Shown: positions 1,081 to 50,877 of the stretch, in pieces
Position numbering within the stretch: position 1 is the stretch's first letter
How the letters are laid out: each line of letters starts with the position of its first letter
NCBI GenBank assembly: GCA_001414485.1
Contig: LLEY01000066.1
Span: 124,001-188,000, forward strand
DNA from: Calycina herbarum
Lineage: Eukaryota; Ascomycota; Leotiomycetes; Helotiales; Pezizellaceae
DNA: 64,000 nucleotides
Reading direction: 5' to 3'
Program-made: the position numbers and the translations under genes
Notes under the pieces: model-generated
Database searches by the model: none
Seen by the model: the letters and a program-made list of their open reading frames with translations, nothing else
What the model was told of the DNA's origin: nothing

Positions 1081-1085
1081 GTAAG

Positions 1086-1548
1086 TGTAACGAAACTTAA
1101 ACGAACTAAACAAAGGTAACTAAGTCTCGAAGGTTAGTATATAGGTAAGAAGTATAGACACGATGGATTGTTTACTTAGAAGTGAACTCGTTACTTATAT
1201 TAAAGATATTAAGTAAGATTATAAGATTAATAACTAAAGTTAAGTACGAAGCTCTTATCTAATAGTAGACGTACTAGTCTTATATAGAACCTTCGTTTAT
1301 GTTTAGAGTCCTTCTTAGTAGGAGTCCTGAAGATAGAGTCTAACTCTATTTCTAGAGCTCCTTAAAACTGGACTCTATCACCTAACTGCTCCTAACCGAG
1401 TCACGTGATATAACTGTAATAAGATTCTTAGGATTATATGTCCTATTATACTTAATCCTTTCCTTCTTCTAGGGTTATAATAGTGCTTATTCTATTAGAG
1501 CGTCGCCTAGACTTCACTTTGTTACGTGCTAGCACGTGATTCGTGACA
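1086..1548 (-). repeat. Element A 3' LTR
   Basis: 463-bp terminal repeat. Because the element is coded on the minus strand, this left copy is the 3' LTR. It carries CACGTG motifs near its inner end. Differences from the right copy are mainly C/T and G/A transitions. Confidence 0.93.
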
Positions 1549-4500: not shown

Positions 4501-6016
4501 ATCTAATTTCGTAAATCGTACTACCTTACTTAACTTATCTTATAAGTATTAGCTAGGTAGTAGTAGATAAGCGTCCTTAACTATAATATAATTTACTTTC
4601 TAATAATTAATATATACTCTTCTATCTAGGTTATCTTTTTTCTTAATAATAAGTATATTTAAGGTAATTAGTAACTTAGATCTTTTAATATATCCCTTCT
4701 TAATACCTTCCTTTATATAACTCTCTATTCTCTATAGGCTTTTCTAGTTATATAACTAAAGCTTCTACTTTAAGAGGTAATAACCCTCTTTTAATTTAAT
4801 CTTATAATCTTATAAGCAATGTTCTAGTAAAGCTTATAAGTCTTCTAAGTTTTTAAACAAAGTCTTAAATTCTCTATACTATATAGGTATTTCTTTATCA
4901 GCTTTCTTACTAACCTATAGAAGACCTTAGACAAGGTGTTCTAGCGTCTTAGAAGAGGTGGCGCTAACCTCGTTCTAGCCTTATAGTTATAATTATAATC
5001 TTATATAATTATATTAACTAAAGGTTATTATTTAGGCCTTTTAATTAATATCTAGATTATGTTCTTAAATCTATAGTATACTAAGTATCGCTTTCTTACT
5101 CCCTATTTTAATTATATTAAATTATATATTTAAATAATATTCTTTAATATTAACTTTTATTAGAATAGTTTACTAATTAATAATCCTATCCTAGTAGACA
5201 ACGTCTATTCTATTAACTACCTCTAAGTAGTATAGTTTCATATTCTTAATTAGAACGCTTAGCTTTTTTAAAGCTATTAAGGAGAGGAAATTACTTATTA
5301 CTTCTAAGTTAATTATAACTCGAAGTTCCTTCCTCTTAATTTTCGTAGTTATAACTAACTAACTTTCTCTAGAGGTAGTGTTTAGCTCTCTAACTATTAG
5401 TTAGTAGAGTTCTCTTTAAACTAACTTCGTTTCTTAGTCTATGTTATATTAGTTCGTCTCTTAGAAGATTATACTAAATAATTTTCTACTTCCTAATTCC
5501 TAAAATATTACTCTAACTCTTCTAACTAAAGCGACTATAGTATACTATCCTCCTATTTCTAGTATAGCTTTCTTATAATCAGGTAGCGTACCTAAAAAAC
5601 TAGGTTTAGAGCGTTCTATAAAGTCGTTAAGACCCTGCTATTACTATAAGCTAGTTTCTTTCTAAAGATCCACGACTATCTAAATATCTCCTATCTTAAG
5701 CGTTCTAGATAGCTTGCTAGATACTGCTTATTCTAGTCTAGGTTCTTTAAATTCGATAGTTTCCCTTCTAGTAATAAGGCTTATTAATATTATTCTATCC
5801 CGCTTATTCTAAACTATTTTATAGGTAGTTAAAATACTAGAGTTAATTTCTTAAGTAGAATATAGGCTCTAGAAATCTGGTTTCTAGTATTCTATATATA
5901 CCTATCTATTCCCTTTCTTAAAGGTTCTAATAAATACCTATATCTCGCCTTATTTAAGCTAATACATTCTTAGATTCATTTCTAATAAATTAGATTCTAA
6001 TTCTAATAACTCTAAT
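1549..6016 (-). pseudogene. Element A pol remnant (RT, RNase H, integrase, chromodomain)
   Basis: Read on the minus strand this is the 3' part of a Ty3/gypsy polyprotein, wrecked by TAG/TAA codons. A chromodomain-like segment is recognisable at about 2080-2215: a KW-GYP-WEP type pattern survives after allowing for TGG-to-TAG changes. The reverse transcriptase active-site region lies near 4290-4330, where the second Asp codon reads Asn. The order chromodomain, integrase, RNase H, RT from left to right fits a minus-strand gag-pol. The segment stops at the B insertion; the upstream part resumes at 17795. Confidence 0.8.
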
Positions 6017-6288
6017 TATAACGGTACGAAACAGACAATACTATAAAAGAGGTATATAGAAGTACGTTTCGTAGAATAACATGCTTAGATACTAGGCTCT
6101 AAATACGAAGGAAAAGATCAAATTAACCTTTCCCGATACTAAGAGTAAGGGCATCTATATATAAAAGGGTTTAGATAATAATAATAGACTCGGAGGTCTA
6201 AACTGGATATTCCTAATACTCGGGTACGTATCCTGTCTAGTATATACGTAACCTTAGCAACTCTTATTCCTAATAGCGGGCTATCACA
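6017..6288 (-). repeat. Element B 3' LTR
   Basis: 272-bp LTR that ends GGCTATCACA here; its partner is 17518-17789. The start TATAACGG is a RIP-type version of TG. Confidence 0.92.
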
Positions 6289-9200
6289 TCCCCCTCTCTT
6301 AAAAAAGACTTGTCCCTAAGGCTTCGTATTATAGTCGGGGCGGTATCGGGGTTGTTTTTGGTAGTGACTTAGTTGTTAGTTCTTATCTACCTCCTATACT
6401 TAGATCTATTTAGAGAGGAGTTAGAGCAGTCCTGGTTCGTCTAGATATTTAGTATAGAAGTCCCTTAGAAGGTATAGCGAACCTTGAAAATTGTTAGTAG
6501 GATACTAGGTAGGGTCTGTATTATAACTAACCTATCTGACCTAGTATTATAGTTGTCTCTTAAAAAGTCTACTACTAAGAATTTCTTAAACTTCCTATTC
6601 TTATATACTCTAAACGATTTCTAGGGGCAGCTCTAGGGCTTCTTATCTAGGTAAGAGAGTGTTTAGATCCTTAGATAGTACGTCTATAGCGAAAACATTA
6701 TAGATTAATAATCCTTCTAGGAGTTTTAGTCTATAAGAGTGTCTTATACGTTCTAGTATTTTAAAGGGTCTAGTCTACTATTCGGCTAGCTTTCGGCTAG
6801 GTCGATTTATCTTAAGATTCCTAGTCGATAAGTAAACTCTATTACTAACGTCCTAGTCGATAGCTCTTTAGTATTAATTCGTACTATCTTATATTCTCTG
6901 CTAAGCTTTGCTTATGTTGTCTTTAGCTACGTTCTAGGCAGAGTGTATACGTGTAGCTATCTTAACTACCTTATTATAATTTAGTCGTTCCCGGGGAATA
7001 GAGGTCCTAGGAGTATTCTAATCCTACGAGGTTCGCGAATCAAGCCTAAACTTGAGCCGATATAGGGTTATACTAATAGACGAGTACGGAAGGGTTATTT
7101 ATACTCTATCTATAAGGGGGATTAACTCGCTCTAGTTATCTTAATAGTAGGTTACGAAAGGCCTTAGCCTCTGATTAATATATCGGTTTATAATCTCTGT
7201 CTAACTATCTGTTTATTTATAATAAGCTATAGAGAGCTTAAGCTTAACACTGATAATACAATAGAATTCTATCTAAAAAGCTAAGACGAATTAAGGTCCT
7301 CTATTAGACGTAATCGATTTAAGGTAGTAACTAAAATAATAGATCTATTATATAAAAAACTAGGCTAATCCTCTAGCATCGATAGTAGAGTAGTAAGGAA
7401 TAAACATCGAATCCTTTCTAAGACGGTTAATAAATACTAGTATAGTATTATATCCGTACTTATTCTTTAGAAATAACTTAAAGTCTATATATATATACTA
7501 TATCAGGTAATCTAGTACTAGTAGTAGGTAGAGGAATCCTTGTTATTTAGTCTATTAAGGATAAGAGTATCTATAAGCTCGGCAGTTAGCTACGTATAGC
7601 TTATAGTCCGAACCTATACTAACCTAGTAGTAGGCGGATGCTAGCAACTAGTATATTTTTCAAGTACTTAGGTAAGTACTAGATACTTAGTCATAAGCTT
7701 CTTAGATTAGATTTATATAGAGTTTAGTATTCCTTTTAATATAAAGCCGTCCTTTAAATAGGAGTAAATTATTAGACGAGATAGTATAACTATTCTTAAG
7801 TTCTCTACGTTCCTTCTCGAATAATTACGTATTAGCCGTCCTTAGCTTTTAAATCAGATCTAATCTAGACTTAGGGATAATATCTAACTTAATTATAGAA
7901 AGAGATATTGCTTAAAAGGTCTAAGTAAGGTTAGTATTAATTTAAGAGTTAAGCCTAATAGGTCTAAGAAGAGTACACGAGCGGCTATCTAACTTAACTT
8001 AATCTTATATTCTAATATCTTACTCCTATCTAGTTAGTATATCCGCCTTTTAATTATTCTTTCTAGACGTAAATCAGATCTAGAAATTAAAGTTAGAGAG
8101 GAATTCTATCTATCGTACTTACTTAGAAGTAAGCAGCTTTATTATTATAAAGTATTCTAAGAATCTATAGTCTAAGAAGACGTCGATATAGTTCTAATAT
8201 AATATAAGCTCGGGTCGCTATTTTCTAAACGCTTCTATAATTATAAACAGTTCCTTATCGTAGATTTCCTAGTTCGTTTTATATCCGACTAGGACGTAGG
8301 AATAGAAACCTATAAGATACTAACGATTACTATATTATTAAGAGAATATACCTACTATTACTCTATTAGAAGAGTCTATCTCTAGCTTTATAGAATATTC
8401 AAGGTCGAAGTAGTATAAGGCTTAAACTAAGAGTAGCTAGGTCTATAATTCTTCGAATACTTCTTCGTATTCAGGTGTTCACTAAAACAGCTCTAAAGGC
8501 CGCGTTATAGTAGACAGAGGTTTTGCGATTTTGCTAAAGTTCTTAATAAATTGTCTATAGAATCTATAAAAACCTAGATAAGACTTCATACCTATTACAG
8601 TACTAGGTCGGACCTAGTTTCGTAGAGGTTCCACTTTATTAGAGTCTACTTCGAGTCCTTTTATAGTTAATATATAACCGAGATATTTAACTTAAGTAAT
8701 ACTAAATTCGCTCTTTTTAATATCTACTTAAAGTCTTACTTCTTAGAGCCGATTTAGAACTATCTTTACTTACTTCTTATAATCTTTAATATTATCTAAA
8801 TAGATTAGTATATCGTCTAAGTAAGCGATATAGAAGTCATCTAGGTAGTCGATTAAGACGTCGTTTATATAACGTTAGTAGGTAGCAGGTCTGTTATAGA
8901 GTCTAAAAGGAAGGACCTTATATTTATATATTCTATACCTAGTTCTAAACGTGGTTATCTCTTCTAAGTCGGGATCTATTCAGATATAGTAGAAAGCTTA
9001 TTATATATCTAACTTAGTAAAGATCTTAGCTTTCCTTAGTCTTAAAATAAGTTCGTTGATATAAGGGATCAGGTAGAGGTTATTTCAAGTAAGAGTATTC
9101 AGTTTCTAGTAATCGATATAGAACCATAGCTTATTACTATTAGGCTTTTTAACAAAGAGTACTAGTAAGGTAAAAGAGCTATTACTATTAATAATAAATC

Positions 9201-10900
9201 CTTTATTTAAATTATCTATAAGATACTCTTTTATCGCTTATAGCTCTATAGTTAACTGTTAATATAGAAAGGAGTAAGAGGTAGGAAGAGGTTTATTTAA
9301 GGTAATTTTATAGTTATATATATAGTAAAGGGGAAGTTTATCCGAGGCTGCTTTTAAGAACACATCCTAGAATAACAAGTAATATTAAGAGAGTCGAGAC
9401 TATATTAGGTCCGTAGTCTCAGCGTTATCTAAGAGTAGAGCTGATCTTTCGTCGATAATCCGATCTAATTCGTAGATACTTATTATAAAGAACTTAGTAT
9501 TAGGTCGCTTTATATTAAAATATAAAGCATTTATACTTATTTTACTAATAAAAGAGTATAAGGTCTGATCTATCTAAGCTATACTAGTAGGTTAGAGAGT
9601 ATTCGAAGCAGAGTCGGATAAGCAGATATCAGGAGTTAATATTATAGATAATAGTAATAACTTAGCTAAGAGCTTACTATTCCTTCGCTTTTTATTTTAA
9701 TAGAGGGCGTGATCCCTTTAGTTCGTATCCGACTATATATTTAAATAAGACTTCTAGTTCTAGCTAGAAGTTAGAGAAAGTAAGATTTCCTTTCTAAAGT
9801 AAGGAGTTAGTAAGGTTCTAGCTAGCTAAATAAGTTGATTCCTAGTAAGGTCGAGGAGAATATTAAAATGTTTTAACTATTTATTTCTAATAATTAGGTC
9901 TTATTATCTAAGGTCTAGGACGATAAAGGGGTAGTTTCAGATACGACGTCGATCTAGGTTTAGATATAGTCGTATAAACTATGTTGCTTTACTCTTAATA
10001 CTACTATCGTATCTACGAATAAGCACCGAGTAGGGTAGTTTTCGAATCTATATATCTAACGATTAGGATAGCTATAAGACTAGGGGTCGATTTAAGAATA
10101 GGAATCTATTCGCTCCTATATCTATTAAGGCTCGAGTTTTAACACTGTATCTATATATACTAAGTGTTATATTCGTAAGGAATTGGTTTCCTTCTATAAG
10201 TCTAGAAAGGTTAAGATTCGATAGATTACATTTATATAGGCCTAGGAAGGAGTCCTTACCTAAGCTGCCTCGTTTTCCCTCTAATTTAGATTAGAATCGG
10301 GGTACTTTACGAGGACTTATAAGTTATCTTCGTCCGCTTCTTAGACTATTTCTTTAATACTAGGTAGCTGAGAGTAGTCGGTTTAGTAGTGCCTAGGCTT
10401 ACTATAGTAGTAGCACGTTATACTAGCTAGGACTCGGTCTAGAGTCTTTTAGCGTTCGCTAGTAGAGGTGGTTTTAAATATTCTTAAAGTAGTCTAAACA
10501 GTAGAGAAGGATCCGTGTATAAGTAGTAAGGGTTTCGGTATTAAACTAGATAAGGATTGAAAAGTAGTCTTTTTAACTAAAGTATTTATACCGACTAGCT
10601 TAGTCGTATTAGCTATATATAACTTAGCGTTTTAGCGTCGTTTCTTATCTAGGGCTAGGAGATCTGCTACTATTTTAATAAAGTTATAATTCTAACGTCT
10701 CTTAAGTATAGCGGCCGAGTTTCGTAGCTATAGTATAATTTTCTCCTATATATAAAAGAATCGTTCTAACTCTAGTATCTCTCCGAGTATAGCTATACTT
10801 GAGAAGCGACCTCTAAAGTTAGTAAACGTTTCTTTAGCGTAATCCTTTCTACCTATCTATAAGGCCTAGAAAGCGTTCTATATATCCTCTATCTCGTATC
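6289..10900 (-). pseudogene. Element B pol and part of gag (disrupted)
   Basis: Minus-strand Ty3/gypsy polyprotein. RNase H lies at about 8140-8320 and the RT catalytic YLDD region near 8820-8850, less damaged than in A. A zinc-knuckle-like Cys/His cluster in gag lies near 10380-10420. Integrase should occupy about 6.9-7.9 kb by gene order, but I did not resolve its catalytic residues. The gag is cut at 10900 by element C. Confidence 0.75.
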
Positions 10901-11141
10901 TATTAAGGGTTACACTCGTGGAATAAGTCTCGGAGTACTCCAGCGACGCATTCACGTGACCTCGCTTAGCAACGCATAGACGTAATAGAACCTTCGAGAG
11001 TACTCTTAGCAGAACCCTCTAGAATAAGTTAACTAAGTATATAAGTTAGCAAGGACTCTAGCTTAGAAAGGACAATCGAATCTTCTTATATATAGACACC
11101 TCTGTAGTTTAATTTATTAGTATTTGCTATAAGTCCTAATA
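10901..11141 (+). repeat. Element C 5' LTR
   Basis: 241-bp LTR paired with 16190-16430. The two are closely similar, and the differences seen are mostly transitions. Confidence 0.92.
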
Positions 11142-11163
11142 TTAGATTCGATTCTTAAACTAA

Positions 11164-11400
11164 CACTAGAACAACGGGCCTTTATAATAATACTAGAATA
11201 TATTAGGCTATTTTGGTAATACTAGAACACAACGGGCCTTTATAGTAACACTGGAACACATCGGGCTATTTTAGTAATACTAGAACTTAAGAGCCTTTAT
11301 AGTAATACTAGAACACATCGGGCTATTTTAGCAACACTAGAATACATCGGGCCTTTATAGCAACACTGGAACTTATAAGCTATTTTATAGTATTTACAGA
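11164..11400 (+). repeat. Short tandem repeats in the element C leader
   Basis: About six degenerate copies of a unit of roughly 30-40 bp lie just inside the 5' LTR. They alternate blocks like CACTAGAACACATCGGGC with CTTTATAGTAA or TATTTTAGTAA. They lie upstream of gag, in the untranslated leader. Confidence 0.7.
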
Positions 11401-11429
11401 ACTTACGAATAATAGAAGAACTATAAGAA

Positions 11430-14400
11430 GGCGGTATACCGAATCAGCTACCTGCCTGGTTCCTATAGTATGTTTAAGAGTAGTGGAATCAGTTAATATC
11501 TGCCTAAGAGGACGATTGTCTACGGATTACGAACGAGCAAAAGAAGGATAAGGAAGCTCGCTTACAGATGATCTATAACGATAATAAACCTGGGAAATCT
11601 CTTCCTCTGCTACTGGAATTCTACGGAGACTCGGACAAGCTAGAAGCTTAGTTATAACAAGCACGAGCTAAAATCGAAGTCGACTACTACGGATATACTA
11701 AATACGTTAAGTTTTAGGCACTTAACAGATCCTTACAGGGTAAGGCGCTCTGTAGAATAGAAGTATAGGTACGGGAACAGGGTAAGCCAGAGCTAGCTAA
11801 TAGCAGTGATTTCTTAGGTTGAGTAGAGTTTGTGTTTAGAGACCTGTAGGCTAAGGAAAGAGTGTAACGAAAGCTAGAATCCTTCTACTAAGGCTTAAGA
11901 CCATTCCTAGAGGTCTTTACAGAATAGCAAGCCCTGCTTATAGAGTCTAGAGGAGGATCTTAGCTGGATAACGTAAAAAAGGTGTCTCTTAACCGAATCC
12001 TTAGCGACGAGTTAGTTAAGGCGATGATTACAGTTCCTTCTTAACCTAACTTCGAGTCTTACTACTCTATTATTAAAGAAACGAATAACTGCTTAAAGGC
12101 TTATAAAGCTTAAATATTAAGATCTAGGGCCTAGACTCTCCTAGAAATACTATAGACCTCTTAGAAACGCTCGACGGATACTATATAGCAGGTAATAAGC
12201 GGTAATATCGCTAATAGACCGAAAGTTACTTATAAGGCATCTGTAGAGGGCATAGATTAGGAACCGGCACCTGCTAAAGTCTTAATAACTAGTACTAAGC
12301 GTGCTAAATAGGTGTTCTAGGAAGAACGAAGCAACTGTGCTCGTACTAGTCGCTGTCTTTGCTATAGAGCTACTAGTTATTTTGTTTAAGAATGTCTATA
12401 TAGACTACTAAGGCAACCTATAACAGCGGATTCGGTCTATAAACAGAAGGTAGAGGTTAAGGAAGTAGCACTAGAATTAGAAGAAGAAGACGGTGATGTC
12501 TCCTTGGATTCGGAAAACTAGTAGCTTCTGTTAGAAAGCGTAGGCAGGGGTAACGAAGAGAGTTGTTAGTAATAGACACTTAGAGACATTTTAAGTAGGA
12601 ATATATAGACGAGAAACCTCTTCTTATATCGGCTTTAGTAAATAGGGTAGCTACTTTATAAGCCTTAGTAGATTTAGGGTATTTAGTCTATAGAATTGTT
12701 TTAGACTGTTTTATCTATTACTATTAGCTCTCTTATATATAAATTATACTAAGGCATTTATAGTTAGTAGAAGGAGTATTAGAGGATACTATATCCTAAG
12801 TAGTATCTTTTAGCATAGATATTAGAAGCTACTAGCAGAAACGGGTTTATACTTACGTAGTCTCTAAGATTAAGAGTTATAAAATAATTCTAGGAAAATC
12901 TTAGTTAAGGAGAGAGCGAGCTTTACTTAACGCTGCTAAGGGATGCTTGCTCTTCTAAGACTCTAGGTTAGAAGTTTATAGTAAGCTAGAAAAGTCTTAC
13001 TCTTATAAGTAAGTAAGCACAGCTGTCTTCTACTTTCTTACAGATCGAAAACAGAAGCTACAGGTCTTTATAGTAAGCCTTATAGATATTACAAAAGCCT
13101 TAGCGGAAAAGAAGTATATAGACCTATAGACGAAGCTACCTAGCTAGATTAGCCTAGAATTCTATCTAGCATTCGATAGGAAGGAAGCAAATAAGTTACT
13201 AGTATATTATAAAGGAATTAATTATAGTATCGAGCTCTTATAGACCGAAAACGGATTAGAAGAAACAGTCCTCTAGGGGCCACTCTATAACATATTATAA
13301 GACGAGCTGTTAGTGCTCTATAAAACCCTAACAGAGTTACTAGACAAGGAATTTATTCGAGTAAGCAACTCTCTAGCAGCTACGCTAGTACTTTTCGTAC
13401 GGAAGCTAGGAGAGGGTCTACGGTTCTATTACAACTACTAAGCACTGAATAAGTTAACCTATAAGGACCGCTACTCTTTGCCTTTAATCTAAGAAACACT
13501 TAACCGGATCGAGAAAGCTAAGTAGTTTATAAAAATAGATATTATTACTACCTTTTATAAGATACGGATTAAGAAGAGAGACGAGTAGAAAACGGCTTTC
13601 TAGACACGCTTTAGGCTTTTTAAATAGCTTATTACCCCTTTTAGACTTATAAATACTCCTAGTACTTTCTAGCGGTATATTAATTATATACTTTAAGAGT
13701 TCTTAGACAACTTTGTCTTAGTATATATCGACGATGTCTTAGTCTTTATAGACGGCACCTATAACCAGTACCGCGAGTATGTCTATAAAGTAATATAAAG
13801 GCTTTAAGATACTAGGCTATAGCTTAATATTAATAAGTACGAATTTGAAGTATAGTCTATAAAGTACCTTAGGTTTATTATAGAAGCAGGGAAAGGTTTA
13901 TAAATAGACCTAGCTAAAATATAAGCTATTATAGATTAGAAAGCACTAATAATAGTAAAAGGCGTCCTTAGCTTCCTAGGATTTGCGAATTTCTATCGAC
14001 GGTTTATTAAAGACTTTTTATAGATTATAGCTCCTCTTTATAGACTCGTTAAAAAGGATATATCCTTCTAATAGATAGACGAAGCAAATAGAGCCTTCGA
14101 ACAGTTAAAGTAGGCCTTTATAGAGGCCCTAGTATTAGCTTAGTTTAACCTAGATTACGAGACGGTCTTAGAGACAGACTCCTCTAGATATTACTTAGGA
14201 GGCGTGCTCTCTTAAGTAAAGAATAGCGTCTTACAGCCTGTAGCCTTCTTCTTAAAGAAACACACACCTGCTAAATATAATTACCTAATATATAATAAAG
14301 AGTTATTAGCTATTATTCGTTACCTTAAGAAATAGAAAGCGGAGTTAAAAAGTATTAGGCAGTTTATAGTACTTATAGATTATAAGAATCTTAAGTACTT

Positions 14401-16189
14401 TATAACAGTCTATAAACTATCTAAAAGACAAATATAGTAGTAGTTAATACTTAGTAAGTTTAATCTAATTATCTAATACTACCTAGGTAAAGAGGGAGGA
14501 CTACTAGATATACTAATAAGGAGGGACCAGGACCTCCTAGAGGAGAGAGATAAACGCCTTAATTATAAGATAGTATAACTGATTCTAGACAGAATAATTT
14601 AAGGAAATACTATATAGCTAGCAGTAGTGTCAGTAAACGAGAGGAATTAAGTAAGCGACGTAGCAACGTAGCAAGCGTTTATAGACCAACTATAAAACCT
14701 CTAGGAAGAAGGAAAGGTATAGGACAAGGACTTTAGGCGTCTTATAGACACTATCTACTAAGGAGATAGGGTGTTTCTAGCAGACCTCGCTTCTCTAGTT
14801 AAAGTCTCTATTTCTAACTACTTAGTTAATAAGAATAGTAATTTATAGTTTAGAGGTAGACTATAGGTCCCTGACTATAAGCTGTTATAGACTACAATTA
14901 TATAGGAACTCTATGATTCTATACTTATAGGCTATCCTAGTAAGAACAGGACAATTGTAATAGTCTTAAGAGAGTTCTTCTAGCTAAACCTATAGACTAT
15001 AGTTAAGCAGTTTATCTATAACTATAGAGTTTATAGACGTACTAAGGTCTAGAGGGATCGTAAATAAGGCCTGCTTCGTCTATTACCAATTCCTAAGTAG
15101 TAATAGTAGGAGATCTCTATCGACTTTATTAGACTACTACTTATAAGTAAAGGCTCTAATATAATAGCAGTGTTTATAGACCGTTTAGGCAAAGAGATAC
15201 TTCTTATAGCTTATAACTCGACTATATCATCGAAGGAATTTACTCGCTTATTTATTACTATATACTATAGCTTACATAGACTACCAAGAGCAATAGTATC
15301 TAATAAGGGCCTGTAATTCATTAGACAAGTATAGAAGACGCTTTATAACTTCTTACGAATTAAACGACGGATCTCTATAGCCTTCTATCTATAAACTAAC
15401 GGGTCAACGGAACAAGCAAATGCTAAAGTCGAGACGCTTCTATAGCAGTAGATTAATATAGCTTAGGACGACTAGGCCGACTGGCTACTAGTAGTATAGC
15501 TAGCTTTTAATAGACGGGATTCAATATTAACAGGTATAAGCCTCTTCTAACTCAGCTACGACTATCCGTTATAGACTATCGACCCCTTAACAGACGTTAT
15601 AGTACCTATAAACATAAAAACACTAATTTAAAAGGGCGAAGCAATAGTAGCAAAGATTAAGACTATTATAGAATAGGTATAATTATTAATAATAAGGGTA
15701 TAATAAGACTAGGAGACTTAAGCAAATCGTTTATAGAATACCGCTCCTACGTATAAGGTTAGAGATAAGGTTTACTTAAGCTTATAGAATATATAGACAG
15801 ACAGGGCTAGTAAGAAACTAGACGCTCGATCCGCTAAGTTTATAGTTATCGAGGTTATTAGCCCGTCTATATATAAGCTAGACACTCTGCCTAGTATCTA
15901 TAATATCTTTAATATAGACTTATTAAGGCTAGCAGCTACAGACCCGCTGCCTAGTCAAATTATAGACGATGATCAACTACCTATAATATTAGTAGATAAT
16001 ACTATAGAATAGTAAGTTAAAAGAATACTAGGTTAACGGCAAAAGAAGCTCCTAGGGAAAGGCTCTCGTACTTAACTCAAGTATAAGGTTAAATAGACAG
16101 GATACGCAAACCTAACATAGGAACCTGCTACTGAGTTAGAGAACACAGTAGCCCTAGACACCTACCTTTAAGAGTAGGAAGGAGGGTAA
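11430..16189 (+). pseudogene. Element C gag-pol with C-terminal chromodomain (disrupted)
   Basis: The plus-strand order is: gag; zinc knuckle at about 12340-12390, where the C-x2-C-x4-H-x4-C pattern is visible but one Cys and the His read Tyr; protease-like segment near 12650; RT with intact YIDDVLVF at about 13715-13745; RNase H near 14150-14420; integrase core at about 15100-15450 with SIDF, IVSNKG and a NAKVE glutamate; chromodomain near 16060-16170. Stops are almost all TAG or TAA, consistent with CAG, TGG and CAA codons changed by RIP. No autonomous activity is expected. Confidence 0.88.
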
Positions 16190-16430
16190 TATCAAGGGTT
16201 ATACCCGTGGAATAAGTCTCGGAGTACTCTAGCGACGCATTCACGTAACCTCGCTTAGCAACGTATAGACGTAACAGAACCTTCGAGAGTACCCTTGGCA
16301 GAACTCTCTAGAATAAGTTAACTAAGTATATAAGTTAGCAAGGACTCTGGCTTAGAAAGGACAATCGAATCTTCTTATACATAGACACCTCTGTAGTTCA
16401 ATTCATTAGTATTTACTATAAGTCCTAATA
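16190..16430 (+). repeat. Element C 3' LTR
   Basis: 241-bp LTR ending CCTAATA, followed directly by the duplicated GTATC. Confidence 0.92.
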
Positions 16431-16435
16431 GTATC

Positions 16436-17517
16436 CGGTTAAGAAATATAAATCTAAAAGTTTAATTATATCTTAATAATTGTAGAAAGTAATATAAATT
16501 AACTTAGACTGATATCGGGGCTTAAGGTAGTTTCTAGCGATTCCAGTAGTTATTCCCTAGATAAGAGCTTTTCAAGTTAGGCTTATATTATAATAATCGG
16601 CATTTACTAGAAGTCTATCGTATACTAATATCTTCTATTATTAGTATATAGGTGATGTACTATTGTCTAAAAGTTTAATTTTTTCTATGATTTTGCTTTT
16701 AGTAGGTTAAAGGGTATTCGGACTATATTTAGAGTTATATAGAGTAGTCTACTGTTAAGAGAAGGTATTAAAGGCAGGTTCGCTCCTTAAGCGAAAGGGG
16801 TCTAGTATAGTGCTTAGAATAGAAGAAGAGTTATAGTCGGTTTTAGGTTAGGAAGGTTAAGAGACTCTAGTTTATTCTTAGAGTTCTTTTATAATAGATT
16901 CTAACTATCTAAACTAATAGTTGTTATTTCGAAGTTCTTCTTCTAATTCTTATACTATACCCCGTATCTCGTCTATATTAGAAAAGTCTTATAGGTCTCT
17001 GAGGTTTCGGGCTAGGCCCTTACCTTTGTTGTTTCTTAACTTTTTAGGTTTAGGTATATAAGTACGGTTTAGTACGTATTCGGAGAGGGGCCTACTGGTT
17101 TCTCTAGTAGATTACTTAACGCTCTCTAGCAGAGCTTAGGAGGGACCTAGGGTCGCTCCTTAGTTTAATATACTTGATATCGTTAGAGGGGTTTTAGAGG
17201 TAGATTCAGAAGCCTTCCGAGTAACTTAATATCGACTTTCTAAACCTTATATAGTAATCCCTATATAGAGAGGGTTATTTGAAGTCTTAGGAATCCTTAG
17301 CGTCTTCTACTTCCTTAATATATTAGAGGATACGCTTTTTACTAGCTAACTAATAGATATTAAACCCTAATATTACTAGCTGTCTATAAACTAGCAATTT
17401 AAGGTTGTCGTTATACTGATCCGAATCTAGGCTGAATCGAATTCGATATAGGACGTCAACGCGCTTAGTAAGATATTATAACAGGCCGTCCCTGGTGAGA
17501 AGAATTTAATCTTTTAA
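16436..17517 (-). pseudogene. Element B gag, upstream part (disrupted)
   Basis: This is the continuation of the element B coding region beyond the C insertion, up to the inner edge of the right (5') LTR of B. Minus-strand frames are closed by RIP-type stops, and the assignment as gag rests on position. Confidence 0.55.
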
Positions 17518-17789
17518 TATAATAGCACGAAATAGATAATACTATAAAAGAGGTATATAGAAGTACGTTCCGTAGAATAATATGCTTAGATACTAGGCTC
17601 TAAATACGAAGGAAAAGATCAAATTAACCTTTCCCGATACTAAGGGTAAGAGCATCTATATATAAAAGGGTTCAGATAATAACAATAGACTCGGAGGTCT
17701 GAACCGGACATTCCTAATACTCGGGTACGTATCCTGTCTAGTATACACGTAACCTTGGCAACTCTTATTCCTGATAGCGGGCTATTATA
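17518..17789 (-). repeat. Element B 5' LTR
   Basis: 272-bp copy of 6017-6288, followed by the CTAAT duplication. Confidence 0.92.
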
Positions 17790-17794
17790 CTAAT

Positions 17795-19024
17795 AAACTT
17801 ATTAATAGTAGTAACTTATACTCTACTTAAAGAGGAAATCTATATTCTATTTCTAATTATATATTATAATATTCTTTAAGAAGTAGATTCCTACTATTAT
17901 TAGTATCTTATACCTTACTATCTTAGAGTTCGATTCCTTTATTTAACTATAGGTATACAGCGCCTGTCGATGTATTTAAGACATCTGTTTCAATCTACGT
18001 ACTATATCCTCTAGCCTCGAGTTCTTTATCTATAAGTTCTATTCTTTCTAATAAAGCTACTTCTTTTTAGATAGTAGCGTTCGCTTATTTCCCTTTAAAG
18101 TCTTTCTTCTTACTATACTTATTTACTCTATAGCTAGAGAAGCTATAGTTATAACACAAGTTCTACTTACGACGACGATCTCGCTCTTTCTAAGAAAGTC
18201 CTTTCTTTAGTAGGTCTCTTTCTTAAGTTCCTTTTCCTAAGACCTAATACTTCTAAGTAGTATTAACTTCTATAGAATCTCTATAGTCTTTTTTCCTACC
18301 TTTTCCTTAATATCGATGTCTATAACTACTCTTTTTCTCTAGACTCCTCTTATAATTCTAATTATTAATTTTAATTATATTATTAGTTAACTTATTAAGT
18401 ATATTTAGGAAGTTATTTCTAGCTAGTTTATTCTTAATACTATCTTTTAATCCTTTATAATACTACTTATATAAGGCTTTATTATTCTAGCTAAGATATA
18501 TAGAGTATTATTAGAATATTAACGTATACTTAGCTACTAACTCTTTTTATTAGAGGCTATATAAAGCCTATACTACCTTCTTCTTTAGATTTATATCTAT
18601 AAACGCTTAGTTAATTCCTTTCTTAAATCTAGCAACGGTTAAAAACAATTCTTAAGTGCTTTTACTTATAAGATTTAACACTCTTCTATTTAATATTTTA
18701 TTTTTCTAAAAATCCTCTAAATATAGCTCTATCTAGTTATATACTGCTCCTTTAAGATAGGTAGTAAGCTATATAACTTAATCAGTTTTATAAGTAAACT
18801 ATATTAAATAAAAGTTTAAGTATATTAAAGCTTTTATAATAAACTTAATAAGCTTCTCTAAAAAGCTATTAAATGTTTTAGGTACTAGCAATTTCACTTC
18901 CTTTCTAATAGTAGTAACTAGTACTACTAGTATTATTAGTACTAGGGGTAGTATAGAGGTTAAACTCGAGGATAGCGTAGTTTTTAATATTATATTAGTA
19001 GTACTTTTAAGTAGATACTTAAAG
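17795..19024 (-). pseudogene. Element A gag, upstream part (disrupted)
   Basis: Minus-strand gag region of A, separated from its pol by element B. A zinc-knuckle-like segment reads near 18130-18180, and a long lysine/arginine-rich stretch precedes it. The same organisation recurs at about 63.6-64.0 kb in element E and at 51.2-52.1 kb in element D. Confidence 0.65.
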
Positions 19025-19487
19025 TATAACGAAACTTAAACAAACTAAACAAAGGTAACTAAGTCTCGAAGGTTAGTATATAGGTAAGAAGTATAGATAT
19101 AATAGATTATTTACTTAGAAGTAAACTCGTTACTTATATTAAAGATATTAAGTAAGATAATAAGATTAATAACTAAAGTTAAGTACGAAGCTTCTATCTA
19201 ATAGCAGACGTGCTAGTCTTATATAGAACCTTCGTTTATGTTTAGAGTCCTTCTTAGCAGGAGTCCCGAAGATAGAGTCCGACTCTATTTCTAGGGCTCC
19301 TTAAAACTGGACTCTATTACCTGACTGCTCCTAACCGAGTCACGTGATATAACTGTAATGAGATCCTTAGGATTACATGTCCTATCATACTCAATCCTTT
19401 CCTTCTTCCAGGGTTATAATAGTGCTTGTCCTGTCAGGGCGTCGCCTGGACTTCACTTTGTCACGTGCTGGCACGTGATTCGTGACA
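19025..19487 (-). repeat. Element A 5' LTR, partly spared by RIP
   Basis: 463-bp LTR. Its inner (left) half is as RIP-mutated as the rest of the block. The outer part, from about 19370, retains CA/TG dinucleotides, for example CCTGTCAGGG and TCACGTGCTGGCACGTG. It is followed by the GTAAG duplication. Confidence 0.92.
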
Positions 19488-19492
19488 GTAAG

Positions 19493-19676
19493 CTCCGGGG
19501 ACCATTTTAGATTTTATAGTAACCTCGATCCGAGGTTATAAGTAATTAGTCTTATTAAGTATTTATAAGTTTTAGTCTCTTCGGCCCGTCGCTACGCTAA
19601 TCCACGGCCCTCCGCAAGCTACGGGGTGGATTCCGGACCTCTGTGTTCAAGAGGCTTATTAAGAGGCTTATAGTTT
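19493..19676. other. Intergenic border sequence with a hairpin
   Basis: Transition from the AT block to the gene island. AATCCAC and GTGGATT at about 19600-19634 can pair into a stem. No gene is seen. Confidence 0.4.
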
Positions 19677-20738
19677 TTAAGAGGTTTTATTCAAGAGAGC
19701 CTTTTGCTTTACGTGCCGGACCCGGTTTGCTTTCTTATTCCGCTCCCGACACGTATTACACGTAAAGAACTGGCCAAAATCTATAAGAGGCTTTTTTCGA
19801 TTGTAAGAGGAGCAGTATCGCTCTTACGGACCCTCCCAGTCCTCACTTCCCTTTTGCGGACCGTTTATAGCTTCCTCCCAACCTTTGCTCGTACTTGTAT
19901 AACCTCCCCAACCGTCTCCCGGATCCGCAAAGCTCTCACTCCCGTCCGTTGAGCCTTCCCAGTTCTCCTCCTCTTGCGGACTCGTTAAGCCTCCGCAGCC
20001 TTTTCGTGTATCTTCCGGATCTATAAAGCATTCACTCTCACCCGTAAAACCTTCCCGTGGCTCCGTTTCCCGTGGCTCCGTATAGCCATCCTATTGCCTA
20101 TACGGGTTCTGGTCCGCAAATCTCATATACTCTCTATACTCCCTCTTCTTATAAAGAGCTACGCGAATCTCTTGTAAACCCGGCGGACCTTCCTCTCGTG
20201 GCACGCCTCTCCACGCCTCTTTCAACGCCTCAAAGTCCTCGTCACTTAGTAACCCGTACCAAAACTCGTCCTTAAGCAAGAACCTTTCTAACTGCCCTCT
20301 TGTAAACCACTCTCGCCCGTTCTCCCACTCTCGCCTAACCTCCTGGTATGTCTTCCGTTGCCGCTCCTTTTGTAATCTCGCTCGCAAGGCCTTCTCAATA
20401 ACACGTCGTGCTTGTATAAACCTTCGTGCTCGTCCTTCTTGTGAAACCGGCTCTCCCTTTTGCTCACGGTAGGAATCTCGTCGTCGTAAATGGCACGCGG
20501 AGCACGTAAGGGCCCGTAAAGAAGTCGTCTGTAAAGAAGTCGCTCGTAAAGAGGTCCGGTGGTTAAGAGGGAAGTCGTGGGTTGGCCGAATACGCTTACA
20601 CATAGAACATCGATCCGTAATACGCGCTGACCGGGGGATCTGGGCCCTCTCTATACACCGTCCGCATAAGGACTCATGAAAGGGAATCAAGGAGATAAGG
20701 CAGGTCTGGCACTCGTCGCAGTATCGTGGGCGAGGCAT
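19677..20738 (-). pseudogene. Zinc-ribbon protein with two RIP-type stop codons
   Basis: An ATG at 20738 opens 215 codons with an N-terminal Cys-rich module (CDEC, CGRC) and a CxxC...CxxC ribbon (RCSMCKRIRP ... TCSAC). This resembles the ribbons that often precede HNH nucleases, but no HNH motif follows. The central part is basic and helical (about residues 95-150). After the TAG at 20091-20093 the same frame stays open for 88 codons of acidic Gly/Glu-rich sequence. A TAA at 19824-19826 follows, then another ribbon-like segment (RYCSSYNRKKPL ... TCNTCRERNKKANR), up to a final TAA at 19677. Both internal stops equal CAG/CAA with C-to-T changes, and one ribbon Cys reads Tyr. It is probably a 353-residue protein damaged by RIP spreading from element A. 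No function is assigned. Confidence 0.6.
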
Positions 20739-25003: not shown

Positions 25004-25134
25004 GGCCAGATGGCGGAGTGGTTAACGCGACAGCCTAGAAAGCTGTTCTCCTCGGAGGCGCAAGTTCGAATGTAAGCATTGCAATAATCATCCGACGATT
25101 TCCCCAACTAATAGCAAATAGCTTGTTCTGGTCG
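25004..25134 (+). tRNA. tRNA-Ser(AGA) with a 50-bp insertion in the T arm
   Basis: The acceptor strand GGCCAGA (25004-25010) pairs with TCTGGTC (25127-25133), followed by the discriminator G at 25134. The D stem is GCG/CGC. The anticodon stem ACAGC/GCTGT encloses CTAGAAA with anticodon AGA at 25037-25039. The long variable arm, typical of tRNA-Ser, is CTCC-TC-GGAG (25048-25057). The T stem GCAAG and loop TTCGAAT (25060-25071) are followed by a 50-bp insertion (25072-25121), then the 3' T-stem strand CTTGT (25122-25126). Removing the insertion restores every stem. A T7 run follows at 25144-25150. Canonical tRNA introns sit after position 37, so this location (between 60 and 61) is abnormal. 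It may be a functional gene with an odd intron or a pseudogene. Confidence 0.8.
25072..25121 (+). other. Spliceosomal-type intron inside the tRNA gene
   Basis: Exactly 50 bp: it begins GTAAGC, has the branch-like AACTAAT at 25106-25112, and ends AAATAG. There are 9 nt between CTAAT and the end, the same spacing as in the alpha-galactosidase intron (42928-42977, also 50 bp). The SRA-YDG introns are 50 and 49 bp. All intron signals of local mRNA genes are therefore present. It interrupts the internal B-box promoter after GTTCGAAT. Splicing is an inference. Confidence 0.65.
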
Positions 25135-25143
25135 AATATTATC

Positions 25144-25150
25144 TTTTTTT
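25144..25150 (+). terminator. Pol III T-run terminator
   Basis: Seven consecutive T residues 9 bp downstream of the tRNA 3' end, the standard RNA polymerase III termination signal. Confidence 0.7.
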
Positions 25151-25234: not shown

Positions 25235-25458
25235 TATTACGGGTGTGAGTGAGTAAAGCTTTAATTTATGACAAAGTCCGTTCTAGTTGACAGTGGAGCC
25301 CGACGAAGTACTGTCTAGCGTTTGTGACTTCGAGATTGCAGAATGTGAATAGCTTCATTCCACTACAGCTTCATTCTTGGGCCGTACCTTCAACTCAGCT
25401 CCTCCCGTTCAGCGCCTCGACTCTCTTTCTTTCAGATCTGAACCTGCGGTCGGGTCTA

Positions 25459-25483
25459 GAGGCGCAAGTTCGAATCTTGTTCT
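25459..25483 (+). repeat. Uninterrupted tRNA-Ser T-arm fragment
   Basis: 25 bases identical to the joined T arm of the tRNA at 25004-25134, with the 50-bp insertion absent. The match runs from the end of the variable arm through the T loop and the 3' T-stem strand into the acceptor, then diverges. No 5' tRNA half precedes it. A T run follows at about 25505. Confidence 0.7.
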
Positions 25484-25509
25484 CCTCGAGTCTCTCTTGT
25501 TACTTTTTT

Positions 25510-34693: not shown

Positions 34694-37600
34694 TTATCTG
34701 CGATTGAAATTGAGGTATCGCGACTAAAATTCTCATCAGTGAAGGACTTCAACCACAGAGACAACCGCGGGGACGGGGAAAAGAAAGGAGAACTTACACC
34801 CAAAAACAAGAAAACCAAATTGCTAACAATAAACACGCAGAAAATACCTAGATCTCTCCATCGATCATCAAAAGAAATCTGCAGCGCATTATAAAACTGA
34901 TCTCCAACTTTATACGCACAGTACTCGCACGCATTCGTGGCGTTATTGACAATGTATCCCGGTCCGCCGTTCTCAAAAAAGTTCTTCATATAATCACCAC
35001 ACATCTGACCAGCCGGTGCGGTAAAAGTGTTAAGTTCAACATCCGTACAAGTAACCGGCAAGTCGTGTAATTCAGTAACGACCATACCACTAATAAGTCT
35101 TGTGAAAGGATCAAGTTCATAGAGCCAAGCACGCCAGAACTTGGGCATGGCTGGTTTGGGGACCGTGACACCGCAGAAGAGGGCGAATGTGATGATGATG
35201 AAGGGGTTGATGAGGGCACTGATGAATGGGGATGGTGTAAGTGCAGCGACCATTTGACCAAGAGTTACGGAGAAGAATTCCGTAATGAGGACCATGAAGA
35301 ATTGGTATCCGGCTTTGTAGGATTCAGAGGAGAAGCCTGGCATGTAGTAGAGTGGCAAGAAGAAACCGACGGCACAGAGAAGAGAATATGGCATTTCTGC
35401 AACAACCAGGGAGGATGCGAATGCGAATTGTCCATACATCTTGGAAGACTCTTCTCGGTAGAAGATCATACGCGAGAGAGCGTATTTTGGCTCAACTTGG
35501 GCGAGAATGAGTGCTGGAAGAACGGTGACTTGGAAGATGACGAAGACTCGGTATTGGAGTGACGTTCTGGAGTCGTCGAGGTTGAGATATGCAAGACCAG
35601 TGAGGAGAGCGATGATAACGTGGTTGAATAGTCGAGTGAAGCCGTAGTTTGGAGATCTCCAGAAAGCAAGATTGGTACGTCGTTGGACAATCTTGAGTTG
35701 ATGCATAAGAGGAGTAGCATATTCTTTCTCGTCTGTTGGGGGGCTGCTTCCTACCTCAGCAAGTCGCTCAGTCTTCATTTGAGAAATGCGGTCTTTGATG
35801 TTGGCCAATTCCGGAGAGTCAGCAAAGATATCAGCCCAGTCTCGGTCTCCAACTCGTTGTGCTTGACCAGCTCCTATTGCGTCGAGCATGTATTCAGCAG
35901 GGTTCGCATCATGTGGGCACTCGGCACCGTGTGATCTCAAGTAGTCGAGGAGTACACAAGCATCTTTTCCAATATCACCAAAGTAAACAGTTCTACCACC
36001 GCGTTGGAGTAAAAGAAGTCTGTCGAAGTTCTCGAATAGCGCGGCATTGGGTTGATGAATGGTGCAAAGAATTGCCTGTCCAGCGCTCGCCAACTTCTTT
36101 AAGAAACGAACAATGTTGAAAGCGGATTGAGAATCAAGACCGGACGTAGGCTCATCCAAGAACAACAGCAACTCAGGCTTAGCAGCAAGTTCAACACCAA
36201 TAGTAACCCGTTTCCGTTGTTCAACAGCCAAACCGGATTCCGGATCTCCAATAATAGCATCAGCCATATCCTCCATCTCCAAAAGACTAAGAATTTCTTC
36301 AACATAGGCGTATTTCTCGGATTGAGGTACTTCAAAGGGTTGGCGGAGATCGGCGGAGAATCGAAGGGCTTCGCGAACAGTTTGTGTGGGTTCGTGAACA
36401 TCCAATTGCTCGGCATAACTGGTTTGACGTTGGAAAGAGGTGGTAGGTTTAAGTCCATCGACGAGAACGTCGCCAGAGATAACACCGATGTTCTTTCTTG
36501 AAGCGAGGACATCTAGGAGTGTGGTTTTGCCGGCACCTAGATAAATTAGTACATGTTTTCGAACCAATTCCCATCCTAGAACAGAAAAGTCGGAAGAACA
36601 GACAGCACTTACCACTTGCGCCCATCAACGCAGTAAGTTCACCAGGTCGTACATATCCATAGATATTATTCAACAGCCTTAACTCCCCAGAAGGAGTAGG
36701 AACATCATAATTCAATCCCTCCCAAGTAAGAACCGCTTTAGAATTAATATTGATATCCGAACTCTCAGCCTCATTACCTTTAGCCGATCTTCTCGCATCT
36801 TTCTTCGCAGCAAGAGCGAGATTAAGTTCATCCCGCTCTTTGTTTGGCTTTTGGAAAATCTTAGCAGCGTTACCGCCCTCACCAAAGGTAAGCCATTCTC
36901 CTAATGTTGCGTTGGAAATGAGGAAGGCGACGATGAGTGCGATGATGATGCCGAAATTTCTCCAGAGGTCGCCTACGTTGTATGCGAACCCTTCTGAGAT
37001 GTATGCGGAGCCGGAAACTCGGTCAGTTCCACTTACACTGCCTGCGATTGTGCAAACTTGGTGGGCGATGTCTGTGTAACTGGGGCCGGAAGGAACCAAA
37101 GATTCCGCTGTGCAGGTCAAGTCGAGTCTGCCGAATTCGTTTTCCATCAATGCGGAGAATCCAAGACCGAGTGCGTTGATCCAGAAGATCCAGCGGAGCC
37201 AGACTTTCTCGGATTGGTATTGGATAAGGTATCCGGAAGTGATAACGAAACAAGTGATGATAGTTGCGGCAAACTTGATGGCATAATCAAAATCGGGACA
37301 TAAACATCCAACAGTTCGGAAGAAGAGCGTCATGGCGAGATATCCAGCAACAATCACGATGAAGAATGTAAAGAATGCCCCAGCATCCCGTACAAGTCCA
37401 CACATGAAGTATACAATAACCGAGAAGACAAAGATTTGAGCTGACGCGAAAGCCGTATCTACTAAAATCTGCGCAATCCAGAGGGCAGAAGGTCGATGAA
37501 ACGTGTAAGCCTTATGTTTATTAACAATCGGTCTCCCCATCATAGTACTCGCCAATTCCGCAAAAGCAGTAAAGGCGTTGAAAAGAAGAGCAATGAAGAG

Positions 37601-42836: not shown

Positions 42837-44518
42837 ATGGCCCTTCCAGGCATGAAATGGCTGCTTGCAGTCACAGCATTGTTATCCCAATCCTCGGCCT
42901 CAACACTCTCTCCGACACCGCCAATGGGTAAGTACACAATCCATCCTAGCAATGCAGTTTTAGCTAATGATTACTAGGCTTCAACAACTGGGCAGCTTTC
43001 ATGTGTGGTCTAAACGAATCTTTATTCGTTGAAACGGCCCAAGCCATGTCCAAAAATGGGCTTCTCGCGGCTGGCTACAACCGTATCAATCTGGATGATT
43101 GCTGGAGTAAGTTTGACAGAGCACCGAATGGATCTATGGTTGCGAACCCAGAAAAGTTTCCAAAAGGCCTTCCATGGTTGACAAGCTTTCTCAAATCTCT
43201 GGGTTTCATCCCAGGAATTTACACCGATGCTGGAAAAAGTAGTTGTGGAGGATACCCAGGTGCATATGGTTACGAAGAAATTGATGCCAGGGATTTTGCT
43301 TCGTGGGGATTCGAATACTTGAAGCTGGATGGATGCAATATGCCTTCCGGAAGTACACCTTACAGCGGAACTGAAAAGGAATACAAGGAAGTTTACGGGA
43401 AATGGCACAGCATACTGAGCAAGTTGCCCAAACCTATGGTCTTCAGCGAATCGGCTCCAGCGTACTTTGCCGAGGCCGCGAATCTGACCGATTGGTATAG
43501 TGTCATGGGATGGGTGCCAGAGTACGGAAATCTCGCCAGACATTCACGAGATATAGTCGTCTTCAATTCCACTCTCTATTGGCCAGATATCACTGGGTGG
43601 GATAGTATCATGTTCAACTACGGACAAGAAGTGCGTCTCGCTAGATATCAGAAACCCGGTTATTTCAATGACCCCGACTTTTTGATTGTCGACCATTTCG
43701 ATTTGACCTTGGATGAGAAGAAGTCTCAATTTGCGATCTGGTCTGCTTTCTCTGCTCCTCTGATAATCAGTGCGTACATTCCTGATTTAACTGCGGAAGA
43801 GTTGAAATACCTCACCAACAAGAATATCATTGATGTGAACCAAGATACTCTTGCATTGCAGTCCACTCTTGTCAGCCAGGATGGGAAATGGGACGTTTTG
43901 ACGAAACAACTGGCGAACGGAGATCGATTGCTCACAATCGTAAATGTGGGAAATTCGACAGCCAGTCACAGTGTATCTTTCGACAGAATTGGGATACCAG
44001 ATGCAAAGTCTGTTGATGTCAAAGACCTGTGGACAGGGAAATCGACTACAGTCTCCTGGAAGGTCACAGTTTCCAACATTGGTTCTCATGGTACTGCAAT
44101 TCTTCGACTCTCACCTTCCGGCAAATCCTTTGGTGATGTTATTCCTACCGGGAAGGTTTTCAATACTTTCTCCCTCGCAACCTTGTCAGCCACTTCAAAG
44201 GGTCTCAGCTGGGCAAACTCTACAGGAGTTGATGGCCAAGTCTGGCAAGCCAAAGAGGATTCTAGTTTGTCACCGATCTCGGATCCATTACAGTGTCTCA
44301 CGGATTTTGATAAGGGCAGGGTCGGGTTATCAAAATGTAACAAAAAGCTTGGTGGTCAACAGTGGGAGTATCTATACTCGGGAAATCTGAGGAGTGTTAG
44401 CTCGAAGGAATGTTTGACCGAGTCTGCATCTGAAGGTGTCATAACGGAAAAGTGTCTGTATTCGGATAATGCTCAGGTGTTTGCTTTGCCGAGTGGTGTT
44501 AAGGTGCTCAAAAAGTAG
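42837..44518 (+). CDS. Secreted GH27 alpha-galactosidase, 543 residues
   Basis: Exon 1 is 42837-42927. A 50-bp intron (42928-42977) has GTAAGT, GCTAAT and CTAG. Exon 2 is 42978-44518. A signal peptide covers about residues 1-22. The GH27 barrel begins PTPPMGFNNWAAF. It contains INLDDCW (68-73), the nucleophile Asp148 in YLKLDGC, a likely acid/base Asp222 in RHSRDI, and FNDPDFL (260-266). A beta-sandwich follows, and the last ~130 residues, with paired Cys and a QCLTDF ... QQWEY pattern, look like a ricin-type lectin module, as in the long fungal AglA-type enzymes. It should remove terminal alpha-1,6-galactose from raffinose-family sugars or galactomannan outside the cell. Length and motifs are complete. 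The exact intron join restores the conserved PMGFNNW. Confidence 0.93.
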
Positions 44519-45002
44519 TATTTGGATATAATAATACATATTGTTCAGAACATCAAGTGCAGTTCGCTCAGTCTACAGTTTCCATATCGTCAATCTTGGC
44601 ATGAAAGTTGAATCCTCCTTAGTGAATTTTATGTCAACAGCAACACCCCGCACGTGATAGACTACGGCAGGTTCCTCCCCACTCCTTGATCAGCCCCTCT
44701 TCTCCCGGCTACAATTAGCCAAACTTCACACCTTCAACAACTCCACTTCGCGGCTCAAGCAACGAACCACAGTGGAATCCGGGACTCGGTAAGTAAGCCT
44801 TACTACGTTACGTTACATACTTAGAACTCTTTCATATCCGTCTCCCTTTTGCAATATCGCTCTCAACGTGACGTCACCTGATGGGTTACATACAAAAGAG
44901 GCTGAAAGTGATTCTAGGAATAACTCATCCTCATAAACATAACGTTTCCTCTCAATTTTGGACACCTCAAAACTCTTGATACACAAATCAAACTTGGCCA
45001 AA

Positions 45003-50750: not shown

Positions 50751-50799
50751 ATTCTAGGATCTTACTATTAGATTAATATTAGGAATTATATAATATATA

Positions 50800-50875: not shown

Positions 50876-50877
50876 AA

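Follow-up and report, generated by a model that had tools for sequence, protein, structure and literature searches.

A 50-nt insert interrupts the T arm of a tRNA-Ser(AGA) gene in the 64,000-nucleotide stretch of Calycina herbarum DNA analyzed here (the window). Judged from its sequence, the insert is very probably a spliceosomal intron of the U2 type, and its host a functional nuclear tRNA gene. About two dozen genes split in this way, this one included, were found in the genome, and their Pol III transcripts would be matured by the spliceosome. Textbook tRNA splicing uses a dedicated endonuclease and a ligase and acts at site 37/38. The evidence consists of the intron anatomy, the exact restoration of the tRNA upon excision, the existence of intron-free paralogues with the same junction, and the conservation of exons alongside divergence of introns. 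The gene has the following features.

25004..25134, + strand: tRNA-Ser(AGA) gene, unspliced (from sequence, ARAGORN, and a pairing check)
25004..25071, + strand: exon 1, tRNA positions 1-60
25011..25021, + strand: A box region TGGCGGAGTGG, intact
25037..25039, + strand: anticodon AGA, within the loop CTAGAAA (25035-25041)
25063..25073, + strand: partial B box, AGTTCGAAT followed by GT, with 9/11 positions retained; the donor GT replaces C61 and C62
25072..25121, + strand: spliceosomal-type intron, 50 nt, at junction 60/61
25072..25077, + strand: 5' splice site GTAAGC
25108..25112, + strand: branch-site motif CTAAT; the branch A is 25111, and 10 nt follow it
25119..25121, + strand: 3' splice site TAG
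25122..25134, + strand: exon 2, positions 61-73, with discriminator G73
25144..25150, + strand: T7 run, resembling a Pol III terminator

The initial annotation had placed a 50-bp insertion at 25072-25121 in the T arm, between tRNA positions 60 and 61, and both its coordinates and its sequence are as claimed. The GTAAGC donor, AACTAAT branch motif, and TAG acceptor described there are all read in the insert, and the Pol III T-run said to follow the gene is the T7 listed above. In the unspliced 64-kb window, no tRNA is found by ARAGORN or by Rfam at gathering thresholds. Once the insert is excised, ARAGORN reports tRNA-Ser(aga), and the acceptor stem (7/7) and T stem (5/5) are paired, which bears out the claim that excision restores a fully paired tRNA. 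The flanks of the window (1-20000 and 48000-64000) are long and AT-rich, with 22-37% GC, and its middle has 36-47% GC. The protein encoded at 44958-45938 shares 85% identity with a Hymenoscyphus fraxineus protein and 80% with one from Amylocarpus encephaloides, both species belonging to the Helotiales, Leotiomycetes.

Inserts of this kind recur throughout the genome (68.8 Mb, 379 contigs). Of 89 nuclear tRNA genes read in a partial census, counted by eye with a script cross-check, 64 are unsplit and 25 carry an insert, 24 clearly and one ambiguously. They fall in nine isoacceptor families and seven clear positions, mostly in the T arm. The families are Ser-AGA (3), Ser-GCT (4), Arg-CCG (1), Arg-ACG (4, one of them ambiguous), Ile-AAT (2), Gly-GCC (3), Pro-AGG (3), Asp-GTC (3), and Leu-TAG (2). 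Junctions in the 25 genes lie at 60/61 in eight, 52/53 in six, 57/58 in four, and 53/54 in three, with one each at 45/46, 51/52, 58/59, and 70/71; the introns outside 37/38 thus range from 45/46 to 70/71. Because the same site is split in eight tRNA genes, including that of the window, and other sites are split in 16 clearly split genes, the insert is more than a chance event. The spliceosomal-intron interpretation, put forward on one case, is now supported by 24 clear ones, with splicing itself deduced from these signals. The ambiguous case is Arg-ACG on C339 (70/71), in which the unspliced acceptor still pairs at 6/7. Leu-TAG on C349 has a clear insert, but its G73 and broken 10-25 pair (by eye), together with its misnaming by ARAGORN even when spliced, indicate that this gene may be degenerate.

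Genes for the census came from Rfam, DNA searches, and A-box patterns, and split genes were selected by eye for GT...CTAAY...AG. The Rfam tRNA search scored 63 of 3182 candidates and gave 58 matches, including mitochondrial and bacterial ones. This approach is blind to genes interrupted in the A box or D arm, so ascertainment accounts for part of the T-arm preference. No Ser-TGA, Ser-CGA, Thr, Phe, Tyr, Asn, or Lys-TTT gene was recognized in the census, and some pattern matches lie outside it (e.g., C334:288917 and C10:90613). Loci with no recognizable tRNA 3' half were left out of the 89 (e.g., L045, L055, L063-L067, L070-L072, L110, L112-L117, L122, L125-L127, L134-L137, L140, L142, L159-L163, and L171), although L115, a Gln gene, was counted; for these loci, only introns with GT...CTAAY...AG signals were considered. 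Also left out were the pseudogene-like L060, L093, and L106, the fragment L096, the bacterial and mitochondrial tRNAs, and a long-middle tRNA-like family. In the cross-check, 69 entries with a contiguous T arm, less 6 split, 3 pseudogene-like, and 6 long-middle entries, plus 4 merged copies and 6 genes failing the criteria (5 Gly-TCC and L124), give the 64 unsplit genes.

Several side observations arose from these searches. The tRNA-like family (L104, L105, L130, L138, L146, L176, L057, and L058, on C1, C80, C190, C99, and C336) has normal acceptor, D, and T arms where complete; about 70-265 nt replace the anticodon loop in the long-middle family, two members being read as Val with long 37/38 introns and the others seemingly lacking T33. 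The long-middle family may represent Pol III RNAs, long-intron Val tRNAs, or pseudogenes. G000:C367:111252-111414 (L001, L009) holds tandem bacterial-type tRNA genes, Ile (anticodon TAT) and Asp according to ARAGORN, each with an encoded CCA, and this stretch is bacterial DNA, present through contamination or transfer. G000:C237, a 35.7-kb contig with many organelle-type tRNAs, is probably the mitochondrial genome. All five Gly-TCC copies read (L108, L164-L167) contain two T-T acceptor-stem mismatches (by eye).

The tRNA-gene introns are 48-63 nt long (n = 25). Their donors are GTAAGT in 12, other GT in 12, and GC in one, and their acceptors TAG in 15, CAG in six, and AAG in four, with AG in 25/25, a tally that bears on genes chosen by eye with GT/AG signals in mind. 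A CTRAY motif with the branch A 9-12 nt from the intron end occurs in 23/25 introns, comprising 21 of the first 23 and both later ones. Shuffles of the first 23 (n = 2000, ends kept) averaged 0.58 and never exceeded 5, versus the 21 observed. The two introns without CTRAY have CTAAA and TTAAT instead. Eight mRNA introns of the same genome are comparable, measuring 49-98 nt and having the branch A at a distance of 9-12 nt from the intron end, the donor GTAAGT in 6/8, and the acceptor TAG in 8/8; in 6/8 the donor and branch motif were search criteria, which leaves lengths and distances alone as independent measures there. Two further features of the window were read from protein continuity.

42928..42977, + strand: mRNA intron, 50 nt, of a gene presumed from its translation to encode alpha-galactosidase
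36537..36612, - strand: mRNA intron, 76 nt, splitting what we take to be the Walker A motif of an ABC transporter gene

As the initial annotation had pointed out, the first of these has the same length as the insert. In both, the branch A lies 10 nt from the end. The sequence GTTCGAATGTAAG occurs six times in the genome, four times in split tRNA genes and twice elsewhere. In L041, it is the start of a 52-nt intron in a protein-coding gene, and in L043, where mRNA introns are predicted on the strand that carries it, it marks at most a candidate splice site.

Such inserts could also be mobile insertions (introners or transposons) with fortuitous splice signals that are not yet selected as introns. 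The many positions and families suggest repeated gain, which favors this possibility, as do the near-identical Ser-AGA units on C49 and C33. These units are 977 nt long and 98.3% identical, have as their exact boundaries the first tRNA nucleotide and the discriminator base of a downstream intronless tRNA half, and contain an 18-nt repeat of exon sequence. However, a whole-genome DNA search with the full window gene (E up to 10, best candidates scored) gave seven matches, all tRNA-Ser genes, so the window segment is not seen as a repeat and the mobile repeat that had been proposed as a check on the intron did not appear. Same-site splits were found by this search in Ser-AGA on C49 and C33 and in Ser-GCT on C15 and C112, and the Ser-GCT gene on C290 is unsplit. 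Among the best candidates of genome searches, neither the window intron nor a Pro-AGG intron has a copy outside its own family, so neither qualifies as an introner. Introns of different families also differ in their interiors, aligning at a mean of 63% and a maximum of 76% against a shuffled baseline of 56%. The excess of 63% over 56% may be explained by shared end motifs, and some of the introns could have a common origin. We therefore consider unselected mobile insertions very unlikely; this alternative concerns origin and is compatible with a spliceosomal intron.

Excision restores the tRNA in nearly every split gene. Among the first 23, the T stem is paired 5/5 in all 23 and the acceptor 7/7 in 21, with 6/7 in Gly on C350; the acceptor of Pro on C112, with the correct start, has the same sequence as pairs 7/7 in Pro on C279 and C329. 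ARAGORN, run on these 23 genes unspliced, found nothing in 19, gave a wrong name to three, and named one correctly. With the introns removed, 20 were named correctly and Ser-GCT on C279, Ile on C108, and Leu-TAG on C349 were misnamed. Rfam at a relaxed threshold, applied to three split loci, gave a sole tRNA match, in L128, at 27.8 bits (cutoff 29); the Rfam tRNA model recovered the unspliced Arg-ACG genes L097 and L098 at 38.4 and 37.5 bits. In the mature Ser tRNAs, 24/24 pairs are kept in 5/5 distinct sequences, and in ten of these pairs both partners have changed. Acceptor pairs 6-75 (C15) and 7-74 (C112), both compensated, span the intron in split Ser genes, and three changed T-stem pairs of the Ser alignment come from the unsplit C290 gene.

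Exact intron-free paralogues occur in 5/9 families: Ile (L119, L121, L157), Gly (L082, L083, L085), Asp (L118, L150, L169), Ser-GCT (L048), and Arg-ACG (L178). An earlier proposal that all Arg-ACG copies are split was rejected when L178 was found by a wider search. Since unsplit copies exist in the five families just named, their split members might, in principle, be silent. This fits a reading in which the split genes are pseudogenes silenced by insertion while unsplit genes supply the function, as does the seemingly degenerate Leu-TAG on C349; in the portion of PMC4090602 available to us, eukaryotic genes with T-arm insertions are supposed to be pseudogenes, an assumption that might account for the lack of attention to such cases. 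However, Ser-AGA and Pro-AGG are each split in 3/3 genes, and a genome DNA search, among the best candidates, found no unsplit gene for either, which also answers the initial annotation's question of whether normal Ser-AGA copies accompany a silent one. Splicing would thus be necessary for Ser-AGA and Pro-AGG unless a diverged copy was missed; for Ser-AGA this could have happened because the census is partial and several families were not recognized. Also against pseudogenes, the exons of the window and C49 Ser-AGA genes differ at 1/81 positions, whereas their introns align at 64%, just above the shuffled 95th percentile (63%), and the branch and splice signals are conserved, whereas the intron interiors are not. 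Silenced copies are thus a highly improbable account of the split genes.

Many split genes, e.g., Gly-GCC, Pro-AGG, Asp-GTC, and Ser-GCT on C179, contain an ordinary 37/38 intron in addition to the insert. This raises the possibility that the inserts are noncanonical introns like those of Cyanidioschyzon, cryptophyte nucleomorphs, and archaea, which the tRNA splicing endonuclease cuts at a bulge-helix-bulge. T-arm introns of that kind are placed at 53/54 in Cyanidioschyzon merolae (PMC9602550) and at 53/54, 56/57, and 59/60 in archaea (PMC4090602) in the parts of these papers accessible to us. However, the central 4-bp helix of a bulge-helix-bulge was found in 0/25 split genes, versus a shuffled mean of 1.1 in our own test, run without a positive control. 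The introns are also unstructured; the first 23 fold more weakly than their shuffles (mean z +0.9). The presence of GT-AG and branch signals argues in the same direction, and we know of no role for them in the endonuclease pathway. Removal of the inserts by the endonuclease is therefore extremely improbable.

The Ser-AGA loci also contain intronless copies of the tRNA-Ser 3' half downstream of the gene, as follows.

25459..25483, + strand: intronless copy of the tRNA-Ser 3' half, 25/25 nt, spanning the GAAT/CTTG junction, with the B box whole
25369..25485, + strand: block ending in this copy, ~77% identical at both other Ser-AGA loci

The block has no genome-search match beyond the three Ser-AGA loci. 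The intronless half lies about 325 nt from the gene in the window and 812 nt from it on C49 and C33 (L032:2447-2477 and, for C33, L037), and it may be an ancestral or a reverse-transcribed empty site. That this half is the real second exon of Ser-AGA, reached across a 300-900 nt intron or by trans-splicing and leaving the near exon 2 as a relic, is hardly credible: although the half matches 25/25 nt in the window and ARAGORN, run on the whole locus, joins the 5' part to it at C49 and C33, the end of its acceptor strand in the window is degenerate (TTGTTCTCCTCGAG) and unable to pair with the 5' end, each of the three loci has an intact near exon 2, and no sense-strand downstream copy was found in seven further split genes with >1 kb of flank.

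How a spliceosomal intron at this site affects the internal promoter was assessed with a matrix built from 24 intact B boxes copied by eye, whose lowest score is 10.5 and median 15.8; random 200-mers reach 7.5 at the 95th percentile. The initial annotation held that the insert splits the B box. The box is indeed interrupted, but it is not wholly lost, with 9/11 positions kept and a score of 10.2, just below the lowest of the 24. All introns at 60/61 likewise retain 9/11 positions (scores 10.2-11.3), and the B box stays whole or almost whole in genes with introns from 45/46 to 53/54. In Leu-TAG, it lies entirely inside exon 2; in Arg-ACG, Gly, and Pro, the acceptor AG replaces the bases before the junction, and the scores are 13.2-18.0. 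Five genes with introns at 57/58 or 58/59 have lost the B box, and no good substitute was found within the gene or ≤90 nt after it, the best scoring ≤6.7. B-box-like intron 3' ends at 57/58 (TTCAG/AATC and TTCTAG/ACC) were considered as candidates and rejected, because their scores are no better than random. In the three split Asp-GTC genes (L149, L168, L170), a B box, GGTTCAATTCC, also lies just downstream of the tRNA (score 14.9). Unsplit Asp L169 has the same downstream GGTTCAATTCC, so this box may predate the intron; it was not seen in the unsplit L118 and L150. Altogether, the B box is intact, near-intact, or backed up in 18/23 genes and lost in 5/23. Runs of T5 or longer occur inside 0/23 introns (about 2 expected), and a run of T4 or longer lies ≤40 nt downstream of 22/23 genes. 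This pattern is compatible with, rather than proof of, transcription by Pol III.

These observations allow a mechanism to be proposed. Pol III would transcribe the split genes from the A box and a B box that is mostly intact, nearly intact, or backed up downstream. The nuclear spliceosome would then excise the T-arm intron from the uncapped precursor by using the GU donor, CUAAY branch, and AG acceptor, and the tRNA endonuclease would separately excise the ordinary 37/38 intron in many of the split genes. We infer that Pol III transcribes these genes, that splicing takes place in vivo, and in which order the steps occur. The T arm should be joined before it is recognized by tRNase Z, Pus4, or the m1A58 enzyme. 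It is likely that about one-fourth of the nuclear tRNA genes in the census, including all Ser-AGA and Pro-AGG copies found, mature only via the spliceosome, that many of their precursors need two machines, and that the introns reflect about ten gains, mostly in or beside the B box and counted as one per family and position rather than from a tree. By the usual rules, Ser-AGA reads UCU and UCC, and Pro-AGG reads CCU and CCC. Protein synthesis in this fungus is thus probably dependent on the mRNA splicing machinery for the completion of its tRNAs.

The mRNA spliceosome would then have assumed part of tRNA maturation, with very short Pol III transcripts that lack a cap as its substrates. This is relevant to how the spliceosome recognizes introns when cap, Pol II tail, and polyadenylation are all missing. 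Because split and intron-free copies with identical joined exons exist in one genome, it can be compared gene by gene how introns are gained, what becomes of the internal B box, and how splicing affects tRNA supply. Annotation is affected as well, in that ARAGORN missed or misnamed all but one of the 23 split genes.

Among known systems, the U6 snRNA genes of yeasts carry mRNA-type introns, and their Pol III transcript is spliced by the spliceosome. Here, unlike in yeast U6, the host RNA is a tRNA; the five U6 matches in this genome cover the whole model in 95-109 nt and are unsplit. No report of spliceosomal introns in tRNA genes was recognized among the titles, abstracts, and passages surveyed in an open-access library, and the available portions of PMC4022394 and PMC13130702 describe no introns of this kind. 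Ectopic spliceosomal introns in another stable RNA gene are described in the accessible part of a study of lichen-forming ascomycetes, in which rDNA contains such introns and a 57-bp one, placed in yeast rDNA, was correctly removed (PMC8527467). The lichen introns resemble those described here in being ectopic and of spliceosomal type, unlike them in residing in a Pol I transcript, and the word tRNA is absent from the main text of that paper. Cyanidioschyzon merolae, the Guillardia theta nucleomorph, and archaea share with this fungus T-arm tRNA introns, some beside a 37/38 intron (PMC9602550, PMC4090602, PMC3978253, as far as these sources were available). Their ectopic introns are linked to the endonuclease or a bulge-helix-bulge, or are as short as 3 nt, whereas those described here have GT-AG ends and a branch site, with no bulge-helix-bulge found. 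The U3 snoRNA genes of most Pezizomycotina examined contain spliceosomal introns with GT-AG or rare GC-AG ends and a limited branch-to-acceptor distance, according to the part of PMC5832005 at hand. The introns of this genome are likewise of mRNA type, lie in noncoding RNA genes, are GT-AG with rare GC-AG, and keep the branch site within a restricted distance of the acceptor. Unlike those of U3, which occupy few positions in one gene family, they occur in tRNA genes of nine families, at several positions, and alongside unsplit paralogues.
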